64,000 bases of DNA from Qipengyuania citrea (GTDB lineage Bacteria > Pseudomonadota > Alphaproteobacteria > Sphingomonadales > Sphingomonadaceae), in contig NZ_JALJZT010000002.1 in the NCBI RefSeq assembly GCF_024171405.1, forward strand, positions 2,046,001 through 2,110,000, in the 5' to 3' direction. Below are positions 42,305-46,967 of this stretch, piece after piece. The notes beneath the pieces were generated by a model. That model saw only the letters and a program-made list of their open reading frames with translations. It did no database searches and was not told where the DNA came from. How positions within the stretch are numbered: the stretch's first letter is position 1; each line of letters starts with the position of its first letter. Both the position numbers and the translations under genes were made by a program.

Positions 42305-43966
42305 ATGTTCGCGACTGAACCGCCTGCCGCTGCCCCGCTATCCGCACTCGACCGCCGTTCGCTGCTCAAGACCGGCATCCTCGGGCTGGGGGTGGCCGGA
42401 GCCCCCCTCGCCGCGCAGACGGGGGGCAAGGGGTTCAGCCACGGCGTCGCCAGCGGCGAACCGGCGGCCGAGCGCGTCCTGCTGTGGACCCGTTTCGTGG
42501 GCGCGCAGGACACCGCGCTGGAATTCGAGGTCAGCGAAACGCTCGAATTTTCGCGCGTCGCGGCCGGAGGCTCTGTGACTGCGCGCGCGGAGAACGACTG
42601 GTGCTGCAAGGCCTGGGCCGAGGGGCTCGAGCCGGGACGCTGGTACTATTACCGCTTCACTGCACCCGACGGATCGCACTCGGACGTCGGCCGCACGAAG
42701 ACGCTGCCCGTCGGCGCGACCGACAAGTTCCGCATGGCGGTGTTCTCCTGTTCGAACCTCGGTTTCGGCTGGTTCAATGCCTATGCGCATGCCGCCGCCG
42801 ATGGCGATTTCGACTGCGCGCTGCATCTGGGCGACTATTTCTATGAATACGGCCCCGGCACCTATCCCTCGAACGAAGAGACGCAATCGGGCCGCGTGCT
42901 GTTTCCCGCGCACGAGATCGTCAGCCTGGCGGATTACCGGCTGCGCTATGCGACCTATCGCCGCGATCCGGACCTGCGCCGACTGCACCAGCTGTTCCCG
43001 ATGATCGCCGGCTGGGACGACCACGAAAGCACCAATGATTCGTGGGAAGGCGGCGCGCAGAACCACCAGAGCGAGACCGAGGGCGAATGGTCGGTGCGCA
43101 AGGCCGCCGCAGTGAAGGCCTACCGCGAATGGATGCCCGTGTCGGATGAGCCATGGGCCGCCTATGAAGTGGGCGACCTCGCGACGCTCTACCGGCTCGA
43201 GACGCGGCTGACCGCCCGCGCCGAGCAGTTTTCCTACGGCCAGATCCTGTCGGGCAAGACCAGTCCCGAAGCCGCAATGGCTGCGCTCGTCGCCTTCCGC
43301 GAGGGCGACTACCGCGATGGCAGCCGCGAATTGCTCGGAATGAAGCAGCAGGCCTGGCTGGCCGATGGCCTAAAGCGCTCGGCTTCTGCAGGCAAGCCGT
43401 GGCAGGTGCTGGTGCAGCAGGTGCTGATGGGCAATCTGGTCACGGCGCCGCGATTGACCGAAGGGCTCCCGGCAGACCTGCCCGCCTATATCCGCCAGCG
43501 CATCCTCGCCGGGGCCATGGCCGGCCGCGCCGAATTGCCGCTGAACATGGATGCGTGGGACGGGTATCCCGCCGCGCGCGAACGGATCTTCAAGGCCGCC
43601 CTCGACGCCAATGCGAATCTCATCAGCCTGGCGGGCGACACGCATAATGCCTGGGCTTTCGATCTCGATCATGCGGGCGAGAAGGTCGGCGTCGAATTCG
43701 GCGTGCAGGGCGTTACCTCCCCGGGGCTCGAAAGCTACGCCTCCTACCTCCCGGTTGATGTCCTCGAACGCGAGACGGTTGCGCACAATCGCCAGCTCAA
43801 GTGGATGGACGGATCGCGCCGCGGATACATGGCGGTGGAGCTCACCCCGGCCAGCGCATCGAGCGAGTTCCGCTTCGTTTCCAGCGTGCGCGACAAGGGT
43901 GCCGGGGTGAACGATACCCGCCGCGTTTCGACGCAGGCGGGAAGCCGCGCGCTCGATATGGGTTGA
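42305..43966 (+). CDS. phoD: PhoD-like alkaline phosphatase D, Tat-exported
   Basis: The 553 residues begin with a twin-arginine-type signal (DRRSLLKTGILGLGVAGAPLAA). The PhoD N domain (FSHGVASGEPAAERVLLWTRF) precedes the metallophosphatase core: HLGDYFYEYGPGTY, GWDDHESTNDSW, SLAGDTHNAWAFDLDH and GVEFGVQGVTSPGLE. It hydrolyses phosphomono- and diesters in the periplasm, helping phosphate scavenging. ATG 42305 is supported by a GGAAGAGGAG site. No Pho-box was identified. Confidence 0.92.
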   Translation: MFATEPPAAAPLSALDRRSLLKTGILGLGVAGAPLAAQTGGKGFSHGVASGEPAAERVLLWTRFVGAQDTALEFEVSETLEFSRVAAGGSVTARAENDWCCKAWAEGLEPGRWYYYRFTAPDGSHSDVGRTKTLPVGATDKFRMAVFSCSNLGFGWFNAYAHAAADGDFDCALHLGDYFYEYGPGTYPSNEETQSGRVLFPAHEIVSLADYRLRYATYRRDPDLRRLHQLFPMIAGWDDHESTNDSWEGGAQNHQSETEGEWSVRKAAAVKAYREWMPVSDEPWAAYEVGDLATLYRLETRLTARAEQFSYGQILSGKTSPEAAMAALVAFREGDYRDGSRELLGMKQQAWLADGLKRSASAGKPWQVLVQQVLMGNLVTAPRLTEGLPADLPAYIRQRILAGAMAGRAELPLNMDAWDGYPAARERIFKAALDANANLISLAGDTHNAWAFDLDHAGEKVGVEFGVQGVTSPGLESYASYLPVDVLERETVAHNRQLKWMDGSRRGYMAVELTPASASSEFRFVSSVRDKGAGVNDTRRVSTQAGSRALDMG

Positions 43967-43991
43967 GAAACCCGCGGCCCGCACCTAATGT
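43963..43991 (+). promoter_or_regulatory. Candidate promoter of the thrS leader
   Basis: TTGAGA (43963-43968) and TAATGT (43986-43991) are 17 bases apart, starting at the phoD stop codon. The predicted transcript start falls about seven bases after the -10, at or one base before the ATG of the threonine leader (43999). The leader mRNA would then be leaderless. The -10 match is weak, so this is a candidate only. Confidence 0.45.
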
Positions 43992-43998
43992 GCAGGCC

Positions 43999-44070
43999 AT
44001 GCCCGACGCGCGCATCACCACGACCACTACCACCACCCCGGGCGACCGGGGGCGGTCGGTCGCGGCTTGA
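43999..44070 (+). CDS. Threonine-run leader peptide of thrS
   Basis: A 23-codon frame reads MPDARITTTTTTTPGDRGRS and ends VAA. Seven consecutive threonine codons occupy 44017-44037, of mixed type (ACC, ACG, ACC, ACT, ACC, ACC, ACC). A run of control codons just upstream of paired hairpins and of the cognate synthetase gene is the hallmark of ribosome-mediated attenuation, as in thrL or pheM of enterics. A scarcity of charged tRNA-Thr should stall the ribosome here. Canonical ribosome binding site is weak (GCAGG two bases before ATG), consistent with leaderless initiation. Confidence 0.8.
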   Translation: MPDARITTTTTTTPGDRGRSVAA

Positions 44071-44082
44071 TCCGCGCCGCCG

Positions 44083-44129
44083 CCGCCCGGTTTCGGGCGG
44101 CATGGCGTTTCCTCCCGAAACCGGATTTT
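44083..44129 (+). terminator. Attenuator: mutually exclusive hairpins and terminator before thrS
   Basis: CCGGTTTCGGG (44087-44097) and CCCGAAACCGG (44114-44124) form a perfect 11-bp stem followed by ATTTT (44125-44129), an intrinsic terminator. A competing hairpin CCGCCCG/CGGGCGG (44083-44089 with 44094-44100) uses the same 5' arm. GGGCGG at 44050-44055 can also pair with CCGCCC at 44083-44088, a candidate antiterminator that overlaps the terminator arm. The hairpin set lies between the threonine codons and the thrS start at 44200. Confidence 0.78.
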
Positions 44130-44199
44130 GCGCAAACGCCGCTTCAAGCGTGCGCGCCCTTGTGCCATGGGCGCCGCAACCAGACGGACGACGAATGAC

Positions 44200-46209
44200 A
44201 TGACGGAACTGCTCAAGATCAGCCTGCCCGATGGATCGGTGCGCGAAATGGAACAGGGCTCGACGCCTGCCGACGTCGCCGCGGCGATCGGGCCCGGCCT
44301 CGCCAAGGCGGCGATCGCGGCGCGCGTCGATGGCGAATTGCGCGACATCAACCGCCCCTTCGAGGGCGATGCCGAACTGGCGCTGGTAACCGCGCGCGAC
44401 GAAGAGGATGCGCTCGAACTGGCACGGCACGATTTCGCGCATGTGCTCGCCGAAGCGGTGCAGGCGCTCTGGCCGGGCACACAGATCACCTTCGGTCCCG
44501 CGACCGACGACGGCTTCTATTACGATGTAAAGGCGCCCCAGAGCCGCGACCCGTTCAGCATGGATGACCTGCCCGCGATCGAGGAGGAGATGCGGCGGAT
44601 CATCAAGGCCGACAAGCCGCTGCGGCGCGAGGTCTGGAGCCGCCAGCAGCTGATCGAAAAGTGGGAAGCCGAAGGTGAGACCTTCAAGGCCGAATGGGCG
44701 CGCGAACTGCCCGAGGACGAGGAGCTGACGGTCTACTGGTCGGGCGAGGACTGGCTCGACATGTGCCGCGGGCCGCACCTGCCGAGTACCGGTAAGCTCG
44801 ATCCGCAGGCGTTCAAGCTGATGCGGGTGGCGGGTGCCTATTGGCGCGGCGATCAGAAGAATGCGCAGCTCACGCGGATCTACGGCACCGGCTGGCTCAA
44901 CAAGAAGCAGCTCAACGCGCATCTTACGCGGCTGGAAGAAGCGGCCAAGCGCGACCACCGCAAGCTGGGCCGCGAGATGGACCTGTTCCACCTGCAGGAA
45001 GAGGCGCATGGCAGTGTCTTCTGGCACCCCAAGGGCTACCGTATCTGGCGCGAGCTCGAAGCCTATATGCGCCGTAAGATGGATGGCGCCGGCTATCGCG
45101 AGATCAAGACGCCGCAGCTGATGGACGTGCGCCAGTGGGAGCAATCGGGTCACTGGGGCAAATATGCCGAGAACATGTTCGCGGTGCCCGACATGGTGCC
45201 CGAGGTCGACGACAGCGGTGCGGGTGCGCATCCCAGCGTCGCCAAGGACGCCGACTGGATGGCGATCAAGCCGATGAACTGCCCCGCGCATGTGCTGGTC
45301 TTCAAGCAGGGCATCACCTCCTATCGCGACCTGCCGATCCGGCTGGGCGAGATGGGCTGCTGCCACCGCAACGAACCGCATGGGGCGCTTCATGGCCTCA
45401 TGCGCGTGCGTCAGTTCACGCAGGACGATGCGCATATCTTCTGCACCGAGGACCAGGTCGTCGAGGAAGTGCGCGCCTTCTGCAGCCTCGCCGCGCAAGT
45501 TTACAAGGACTTCGGCTTCAGCTTCGCGATCAAGCTGGCGCTGCGGCCCGAGAAGCGTCTGGGTTCGGATGCGGACTGGGACAAGGCCGAGCAGGAACTG
45601 CGCGATGCGGTCGAGGAAGCCGGCATGATGAGCGAGGAGTTCGGCTGGGAAGAACTGGAAGGCGAAGGTGCCTTCTATGCGCCCAAGCTCGAATGGCACC
45701 TCACCGATGCGATCGGGCGGACCTGGCAGGTCGGCACGATCCAGGGTGACCGCGTGCTGCCCGATCGTCTCGAAGCGACCTATATCGGCGAGGATGGCGA
45801 CAAGCACCGCCCGGTCATGCTGCACCGTGCGATCTTCGGCAGTTACGAACGCTTCATCGGGATCCTGATCGAACATTTCGCCGGGCGCCTGCCCGTCTGG
45901 CTTGCCCCGGTGCAGGCGGTGGTCGCGACGATCGTGTCCGACGCCGACGGCTATGCGAAAGAAGCGGTCGCCAAGCTCGAGGCCGCGGGCATCCGCGTCG
46001 AGAGCGACCTGCGCAACGAGAAGATCAACTACAAGGTGCGCGAGCACAGCCTCGCCAAGGTCCCGCACCTGCTGGTGGTGGGCAATCGCGAGGCCGAGGA
46101 AGGCACTGTGGCGGTCCGTACGCTGGGCGAGAAGGACCAGCGCGTGATGAGCCTCGACGAGGCGATCGCGATGCTGCGTAGCGAAGCCACTCCGCCCGAC
46201 CTGCGCTAG
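44200..46209 (+). CDS. thrS: Threonyl-tRNA synthetase
   Basis: This 669-residue class II synthetase attaches threonine to tRNA-Thr. It contains an N-terminal TGS domain ([21 protein letters not shown]), the editing domain with [11 protein letters not shown] and [12 protein letters not shown], the catalytic core [50 protein letters not shown] (motif 2), [18 protein letters not shown], and the C-terminal anticodon-binding domain. ATG 44200 is chosen from the TGS start. Expression is probably controlled by the threonine leader upstream. It is not followed by infC as in enterics. Confidence 0.97.
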
Positions 46210-46223
46210 AAGGGCTGCACGCG

Positions 46224-46967
46224 ATGGACCTGCTGGCGGCCTATGCGCCGTGGCAATTGGCGGCGGCGCTTGCGGCAGCCTTCGGCTCGGCCTTCGTGCG
46301 CGGCCTGACCGGTTTCGGCATGGCGATCCTGCTGGTGCCGATCCTCGCGCTGGCATTACCGCCGGTGGAGGCGGTGCTGCTGGCCAATTTCCTCTCGCTC
46401 TTCATCGGGCTGAGCGAGGTTCGGCGGCTGGTGCGCGGGGCGGAGCGCTCGGCGTGGCGCATATCCATCCTCGTGGTGCTGGTCACCCCGCTCGGCCTGC
46501 TGGCGCTGGCTGCGACGAGCAATGACCTCGCGCGCTTCCTGATCGCGATGATTGCGCTGTCCGCCTTCTTCGCCATTCTCCTGCCGCGCCGGGCGGGTAC
46601 AGAGCCGGGGCATCTGGCAACCGGAGGGGTGGGGGTGCTGAGCGGGCTGATGACGGGCTATGCCGGAATGCCCGGCCCGCCGGTCGTGCCCTATTATGTC
46701 GGGCGGGCCATCCCGCGCGAGACGGCCAAGGCCTCGATGATGCTGATCTTCACCATTGCGGCAGGCGCGGGCCTGGTTTCGGGCGCCGCACTGGGAATCC
46801 TCGCCTGGCGCTTGCCGCTGCTGGCGGCGCTGCTGTTCCCCGCGGTATTGCTGGGCAATTGGCTGGGGGATCGCGCTGCGGGGCAGATCGGGGACGCGCT
46901 GTGGCGCGGGGTCGTCGGCGTGATTTTGGGCGGGGCTGCGCTCGCGGCGCTGCTACGCCTGCTCTAG
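46224..46967 (+). CDS. TauE/SafE-family sulfite exporter-like permease
   Basis: This 247-residue protein has about eight hydrophobic segments. It starts with AFGSAFVRGLTGFGMAILLVP, carries the ...LTGFG...P pattern and MTGYAGMPGPPVVPYYVG of the TauE/SafE permeases, and ends GAALAALLRLL. The family exports sulfite, sulfonates or other small anions. It begins 14 bases after thrS and may be co-transcribed with it, but no functional link is obvious. Confidence 0.85.
   Translation: MDLLAAYAPWQLAAALAAAFGSAFVRGLTGFGMAILLVPILALALPPVEAVLLANFLSLFIGLSEVRRLVRGAERSAWRISILVVLVTPLGLLALAATSNDLARFLIAMIALSAFFAILLPRRAGTEPGHLATGGVGVLSGLMTGYAGMPGPPVVPYYVGRAIPRETAKASMMLIFTIAAGAGLVSGAALGILAWRLPLLAALLFPAVLLGNWLGDRAAGQIGDALWRGVVGVILGGAALAALLRLL

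Follow-up and report, generated by a model that had tools for sequence, protein, structure and literature searches.

Leaders that carry codons for the cognate amino acid, together with a U-tract terminator, precede thrABC (thrL) and pheST (pheM) in enteric bacteria, the latter encoding a tRNA synthetase, and the his leader of Escherichia coli comprises six segments that form a chain of neighboring alternative pairings. The textbook synthetase case is the operator of E. coli thrS, at which threonyl-tRNA synthetase (ThrRS) binds tRNA-Thr-like domains of its own mRNA ahead of the start codon. The available text of one source names ThrRS of E. coli as self-regulating (PMC2965389). For thrL-thrS of Streptomyces lividans TK24, the available part of the report describes a leaderless 18-codon leader with two Thr codons and one hairpin, and no uridine-rich stretch (PMC8079986). 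Excerpts of further sources describe the uORFC-8-2 motif before cysS in Rhodobacterales, a proposed ribosome-mediated attenuator with two Cys codons, two prominent stems and a 3' U run (PMC8632094); trpL of Sinorhizobium meliloti, whose leader open reading frame (ORF) starts at the 5' end of the transcript and mediates ribosome-dependent attenuation with a transcription terminator (PMC7298713, PMC10117765); and SEP5 of S. meliloti, a short ORF in a 5' untranslated region with six Thr codons, proposed as a leader peptide and found in Sinorhizobium only (PMC10117765). The present analysis concerns the region upstream of thrS, the ThrRS gene, in a 64,000-nucleotide (nt) stretch of Qipengyuania citrea (contig NZ_JALJZT010000002.1, positions 2046001-2110000; hereafter the window, to which all coordinates refer), where a short ORF with seven consecutive Thr codons is followed by a chain of alternative RNA helices. 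The comparisons described below make it quite probable that this leader controls thrS by ribosome-mediated attenuation. The comparative basis of this putative attenuator, namely the Thr run, the promoter geometry, the co-evolving helices and the confinement to one family among the genomes searched, has been established at the level of sequence.

The threonine-codon leader and its putative promoter

The leader, its putative promoter (P1) and the downstream gene are as follows.

43963-43968, plus strand: -35 element of P1, TTGAGA (from the sequence and the geometry in relatives)
43986-43991, plus strand: -10 element of P1, TAATGT, 13 nt upstream of the leader ATG (from the sequence and the geometry in relatives)
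43999-44070, plus strand: leader peptide ORF of 23 codons plus stop, MPDARITTTTTTTPGDRGRSVAA (from the sequence and relatives)
44017-44037, plus strand: seven consecutive Thr codons, predicted stalling site (from the sequence and leader comparison)
44200-46209, plus strand: thrS, threonyl-tRNA synthetase (TIGR00418, 642 bits, above the curated cut-off)

The thrS start at 44200 agrees with the ORF list and with homologues, and lies 129 nt beyond the leader stop codon. The 23-codon frame with seven Thr codons had been pointed out by the first-pass annotation, which was made from the sequence alone; the frame is present, and its enrichment upstream of thrS is far above chance. Among the 188 thrS loci of the comparison set, an ORF with an ATG start, 15-40 codons and at least five Thr in nine was found within 450 nt upstream of thrS on the sense strand at 72 (own locus included) and on the antisense strand at none, whereas control 450-nt windows from the longer loci yielded 3 of 1146. 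The same search made for each of the other amino acids recovered no more than 7 of the 188 loci (Ala). A run of codons for the amino acid cognate to the downstream gene, a feature of attenuators, is therefore found in this ORF.

From 84 candidate leaders, five non-ATG rows were removed, and the remaining 79 ATG leaders span 32 genera (31 without the weak L170). Their peptides follow an approximate common pattern, drawn by eye, of M-x-x-x-R-x-T(n)-P-x-x-RGR-x-V-A. For codon counts, promoter geometry and the spacing from stop codon to hairpin A (below), the near copies L021 and L060 were excluded along with L170, leaving 76 leaders, in which Thr codons number 6.9 on average and their third bases are varied (ACC 276, ACT 121, ACG 113, ACA 18). 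Since the third codon bases vary, it is the amino acid Thr that is the conserved feature. One Novosphingobium leader (L269) has a GTG start.

A -35/-10 pair stands upstream of the leader ATG in 72 of 76 leaders, with a 17-nt spacing in 70 of the 72, as against 89 of 3760 positions drawn at random from the 188 upstream regions; this pattern was defined after inspection of the leader sequences, and P1 was detected by comparison only. The start of the -10 element lies 12 or 13 nt upstream of the ATG in 66 of 74 leaders. Scans of 43500-44700 for terminator-like and promoter-like sites found nothing. Given the -35/-10 geometry, transcription is expected to begin at the leader ATG or within about 0-2 nt of it, which implies that the leader transcript would itself be leaderless. 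The -35 element overlaps the stop codon of an upstream 589-amino-acid (aa) ORF, which ends at 43966.

Helices, ribosome position and proposed output

Six helices, which join regions numbered 1 to 5 and two further elements (E and C), lie over and after the ORF. Each is given with its z value from a partner-swap test, described below.

44036-44051, plus strand: hairpin 1:2, 44036-44041 with 44046-44051 (z -6.7)
44046-44090, plus strand: helix 2:3, 44046-44055 with 44080-44090, G44085 bulged; predicted with a stalled ribosome (z -4.6)
44061-44076, plus strand: hairpin E, 44061-44065 with 44072-44076, stop codon in the loop (z -5.6)
44082-44101, plus strand: hairpin A (3:4), 44082-44089 with 44094-44101; predicted OFF (z -6.8)
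44087-44124, plus strand: helix B (4:5), 44087-44097 with 44114-44124; predicted ON (z -12.6)
44104-44140, plus strand: helix C, 44104-44110 with 44134-44140, crossing B; predicted OFF (z -9.4)
44125-44129, plus strand: ATTTT tail after B (from the sequence; no conserved U-tract in relatives)

Much of this had been anticipated: the 11-bp stem of B followed by ATTTT is present, the pairing noticed within 44083-44100 is present and extends to that of A, and the pairing of 44050-44055 with 44083-44088 is better described by the 10 bp of 2:3 given above. Helix C, hairpin E around the stop codon and P1 are additions to that earlier list.

The covariance model was built with 1:2, E, A and C, leaving out 2:3 and B; it matched 77 of 96 loci (L170 weakly), which gave an alignment (A2) of 79 matches, including L170 and second matches in L081 and L061, that was used for column covariation counts. 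The same three rows were excluded from ribosome-masked folding, T-tail counts and the partner-swap test, for which n was 67-76, rows lacking the needed marks being left out. In the alignment, which was fitted to the OFF structure and leans towards it, 23 of 26 pairs of that structure have changed on both sides, and 89.2% of its cells are paired, against 81.0% when shuffled and at most 51.8% when slid. Hairpin E is the least regular helix, with 70.7% of alignment cells paired. For 2:3, 93.7% of cells are paired (92.3% in shuffles) with 9 double-changed cells (1.3 in shuffles), and for B, 83.8% are paired (79.5%) with 27 double-changed cells (9.0); none of 500 shuffles reached either helix in cells paired, double-changed cells or covariation score. 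When arms were swapped between rows, the cognate arms were the better binders in each of the six helices (z from -4.6 to -12.6, strongest for B), whereas two controls with non-partners gave z -1.1 and +1.8; restricted to a single row for each genus, the test gave z -3.0 to -9.0 for the helices and +0.2 and +1.2 for the controls. Mutually exclusive helices conserved by compensatory change, as expected of an attenuator, are thus found over and after the ORF, and A and B, although they exclude one another, are both taken as real on the strength of these comparisons. The comparison of thrS upstream regions that the first-pass annotation had proposed therefore found conserved Thr runs and compensatory changes in the helices, and both support its view that a leader sensing charged tRNA-Thr would stand before thrS itself. 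In two congeneric loci (L026 and L028), an insert of about 90 nt with inverted repeats follows region 5 and precedes the 3' arm of C; it falls within the C loop, and the leader and the C arms are retained.

That GC-rich palindromes and an ACC-rich stretch, or a DNA repeat, merely mimic an attenuator is exceedingly unlikely. The high G+C content is compatible with such mimicry, as is the single-sequence fold, which is only mildly unusual (z -1.86, with 6 of 200 shuffles equally good). However, the covariation of the OFF structure, the enrichment of Thr-run ORFs, the promoter geometry, the partner-swap results and the retention of Thr while third bases vary all argue against it.

Ribosome-masked folding suggests how these helices may be used. 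With a ribosome on the stop codon, A was predicted in 66 of 70 rows, C in 62 and B in none, whereas with a ribosome stalled on the Thr run the counts were 42 of 68 for 2:3, 26 for B, 16 for A and 7 for C. Without a ribosome, the counts out of 70 were 44 for A, 37 for C, 35 for 1:2 and 17 for 2:3. The stop codon lies 13 or 14 nt upstream of A in 48 of 75 loci. The result at the stop codon was stable when the first free base was placed from stop+10 to stop+14, B being formed in only 1-2 of 73 rows between stop+8 and stop+14, and the result for the stall was similar from 44040 to 44046. In these computations, the position of the ribosome appears to choose between helix sets, a prediction that becomes mixed with the edge of the footprint at stop+16 and reverses from stop+18; A plus C looks like the OFF state, 2:3 plus B like the ON state.

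The model that follows proposes that transcription begins at the leader ATG or beside it, as P1 would place it, so that the leader would be translated during its own synthesis. When charged tRNA-Thr is ample, the ribosome would reach the stop codon and cover region 2, region 3 would pair with region 4 (A), and C would form behind it, giving the OFF state. With charged tRNA-Thr in short supply, the ribosome would stall in the Thr run and mask region 1, region 2 would pair with region 3 and region 4 with region 5 (B), and the resulting ON state would yield more thrS mRNA; most of A would be lost and, as C crosses B, C as well. With a ribosome over 44046-44047, a shortened 2:3 would free 44088-44090, and a nearly full-length B could stack on 2:3.

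No hairpin has a conserved U-tract, so that any mechanism for the OFF state is putative. A terminator hairpin with a U-tract, the usual form of an intrinsic attenuator, was not found in the leader: the mean number of T in the 8 nt after the helix is 2.0 for A, 2.69 for B and 2.47 for C, against a background of 1.31, and at least five T occur in 0 of 75, 3 of 72 and 2 of 75 rows, respectively. However, in positions 1-40000 of the window, terminator-like sites with a U-tract are not in excess over shuffled sequence (16 versus 13.0 +/- 3.5, and 10 versus 11.6 +/- 3.3), and the lack of a U-tract therefore says little against termination in this genome. The same counts hint that U-tract termination may be uncommon there.

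In the version of the first-pass annotation, B with its ATTTT tail would be an intrinsic terminator when charged tRNA-Thr is plentiful, and 2:3 would be the antiterminator that removes the base of B. We regard this as unlikely, even though B has the strongest z in the swap test and a tail richer in T than those of A and C (at least four T in 25 of 72 rows), 2:3 shares 44087-44090 with B, and B would form at the stop codon in 41 of 73 rows if the edge of the ribosome lay at stop+18 or beyond, or in 14 of 73 at stop+12 before C is made. At the usual ribosome edge, however, it is A and C that form and B that is missing (0 of 70), and B is still formed when the ribosome is stalled (26 of 68, or 53 of 76 for RNA that stops short of the 3' arm of C with 44046 as the first free base). 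The role of B as a terminator at plentiful tRNA-Thr is thus not supported by the predicted states, which would reverse with the ribosome edge at stop+18 or beyond. Reading the tail as a U-tract fares no better, as at least five T in 8 nt occur in only 3 of 72 rows. The basal pair 44087-44124 is present in 15 of 72 rows.

Another possibility is that stalling changes how accessible the thrS ribosome-binding site is on a full-length mRNA, as is the case with erm-type leaders, and the missing U-tract does leave room for an output other than termination. Such translational control appears quite improbable, however, as the predicted openness of the ATG and the preceding 14 nt is 0.45 with the ribosome at the stop codon versus 0.46 when stalled, differs by more than 0.05 in few rows and in both directions (higher stalled in 9 of 69, higher at the stop in 7 of 69), and C ends 59 nt upstream of thrS in the window.

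For the attenuator proposed here, premature termination near or after C, by a U-poor hairpin or Rho, is the output that we somewhat favor for the OFF state. C is the likeliest output element because, with A alone as the switch, the co-evolution of B and C would lack an obvious use. A more specific proposal, offered tentatively and with less than even expectation, is a stall-gated RNA relay in which the helix chain passes the position of the ribosome to C, which crosses B in a pseudoknot topology, and C shuts thrS without a U-tract. Equally tentatively, the output of such a relay may be a U-independent or Rho-assisted attenuator, or an output undescribed for amino-acid leaders.

Distribution among relatives and the region next to thrS

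Of the 188 loci, 186 were scored with covariance model R1 (L021 and L060 left out). The own genome has one strong match (158.3 bits; the next is 18.5). In a class-wide R1 search of 385 genomes with stricter filters, strong matches of at least 96.8 bits occurred in 4 of 5 same-family genomes among the matches listed, own included, and in G054 and G081 the whole-genome matches are found immediately upstream of thrS and on its strand. At 90 other thrS loci the best R1 scores were 21.8 (L160) and 17.4 bits (L185). Within the searches made, the element is strongly matched solely in one alphaproteobacterial family. R1 also matched 13 of the 385 genomes, from other alphaproteobacterial families, with no more than 23.6 bits, and these weak matches were treated as chance; the sole weak match inspected, L294, is from a genome whose thrS is on a different contig. 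L185 has a decayed leader-like frame. An Rfam search of 43800-44400 returned chance-level matches only, none near the gathering score.

Within the genus, a looser scan found a leader in 22 of 27 loci (own locus and near copy included), the exceptions being L023 with a shorter run, L027 and L041 with degenerate leaders, L019 with an unrelated GTG frame only, and L040 with nothing, while that scan passed none of the 15 loci that represent other families of the order. An ATG leader is present at 21 of 80 named thrS loci, 13 of the 21 being labelled Erythrobacteraceae, and R1, run on 30 of the 80, recovers those 21 plus L269, which was scored as leader-less both in this set and in the tree. Mapped onto a tree of 79 thrS proteins, the leader requires a minimum of 6 changes, as against 18.8 in shuffles; it fills one 15-row clade (SH-aLRT 83), beyond which it occurs in two Novosphingobium rows, Blastomonas, Sphingopyxis and two Sphingomonas-labelled rows. 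This distribution may reflect an old origin with losses, or transfer.

A Thr-run leader of another lineage, e.g. MRTHPVLRSTATTTTTATGGRWRMRA, was noticed about 320-360 nt upstream of thrS in L314 and L356, from a distant alphaproteobacterial family (f58). It occurs in 2 of 30 loci of that family, is followed by a GC-rich hairpin, and is perhaps an independent invention; among 30 class-wide thrS loci inspected, L314 alone has such a Thr run. In the own genome, the best ilvB and pheS loci have no comparable leader by eye in about 500 nt, and hence no reference attenuator is available from the same genome.

One further feature lies between the leader and thrS.

44143-44171, plus strand: possible proximal thrS promoter P2 (TTCAAG, 17 nt, CATGGG) and/or hairpin before thrS (suggested by relatives and by arm co-variation)

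A conserved CTTC block and a TTGTGCCATGG-like block with moderately co-varying arms occupy 44143-44180, and may be a proximal promoter, an RNA hairpin or both. At the proximal site, leader-negative relatives tend to CTTGCC or CTTGAC and leader-positive ones to CTTCAAG or CTTCCGG; a loose pattern for the site is present in 54 of the 76 leader loci and in 42 of 104 others. The decayed leaders of L027 and L041 have few or no consecutive Thr, and there the proximal site is CTTGAC, nearer the -35 consensus, a pattern as if thrS had reverted to the proximal promoter. If P2 is active, attenuation would tune only part of thrS expression. The same region could also be an operator of the E. coli type, at which ThrRS would bind its own mRNA at a hairpin around 44146-44180, with the leader a minor addition. 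The conserved TTGTGCCATGG-like block and its moderately co-varying arms (z -4.6 in 67 rows, -2.6 in 28 genus rows) fit this idea, which is nonetheless very unlikely, as the block aligns with the proximal promoter-like site of leader-less relatives, and the Thr run and the leader helices would be left unexplained. An antisense open frame of 870 aa (minus strand, 43744-46356), which overlaps thrS and the leader, is probably a by-product of high G+C content.

Several points weigh against the attenuator as proposed here. No conserved U-tract was found after A, B or C, and a possible P2 lies downstream of the switch. The folded states are thermodynamic rather than co-transcriptional, and depend on where the ribosome ends: at stop+16 they are mixed (A 50, B 15 of 73), and at stop+18 they reverse (B 41, A 16, C 18 of 73). 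As long as C has yet to be synthesized, B prevails in 14 of 73 rows at stop+12 and in 19 of 73 at stop+14, and for early stalls, with the first free base at 44030-44036, the outcome is mixed and C is present in 35-46 of 76. The margin of 2:3 over shuffles in cells paired is modest (93.7 versus 92.3%), and the number of B pairs with double changes, 5, was reached in 29 of 500 shuffles and was 6 when the helix was slid by -1. Shuffles and swaps also ignore the tree, although the controls share the same tree. Lastly, close relatives do without the switch, as two of the 27 congeneric loci have degenerate leaders (L027, L041) and two have none (L019, L040).

Comparison with known systems

As in enteric pheM and thrL, the leader has cognate codons, but the amino acid or the target differs and a U-tract is present there. 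The chain of pairings resembles that of the E. coli his leader, with the difference that here the last OFF helix, C, crosses B rather than sharing a strand with it. The E. coli thrS operator concerns the same gene, but there it is ThrRS that binds the mRNA, whereas here a Thr-codon leader is proposed.

The nearest alphaproteobacterial relative, as far as the excerpted source describes it, is uORFC-8-2, likewise a leader ORF with cognate codons before an alphaproteobacterial synthetase gene; there, however, Cys, cysS, two stems and a U-run are described, whereas Thr runs, thrS, six helices and no conserved U-run are found here (PMC8632094). The thrS leader does not belong to that motif, as tandem Cys codons, cysS downstream and a U-run are not found. 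S. meliloti trpL has the leaderless start and the dependence on the ribosome that are predicted here, but, in the parts of the sources available, it belongs to Trp biosynthesis, has a described terminator and has been studied experimentally (PMC7298713, PMC10117765). SEP5 differs in that, in the available text, it precedes an aspartate dehydrogenase gene and has Thr and Lys codons (PMC10117765).

S. lividans thrL-thrS, according to the available part of the report, is alike in having a Thr-dependent leader before thrS that is leaderless (here predicted) and without a U-rich Rho-independent terminator, but it is from an actinobacterium and has two Thr codons and one hairpin, whereas a mean of 6.9 Thr codons and six co-varying helices are found here (PMC8079986). 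On the evidence of that excerpt, neither a Thr leader for thrS nor a missing U-tract is new in itself. In the literature searched, no thrS leader is described for Sphingomonadales or other alphaproteobacteria, and Lopatovskaya et al. 2010, whose title concerns aminoacyl-tRNA operons, may list thrS. As far as that literature goes, what is new is an alphaproteobacterial case with a long Thr run and six co-varying helices that include the A/B and B/C conflicts.

A helix chain without a U-tract poses a testable question, namely how transcription ends in attenuators of GC-rich bacteria, and leader-positive and leader-negative relatives, some of them in one genus, offer natural comparisons. If the proposed attenuator is correct, thrS would be under a quite different sensor, tRNA charging read through the ribosome, in two distant phyla, represented by Sphingomonadaceae and, as proposed, by Streptomyces.

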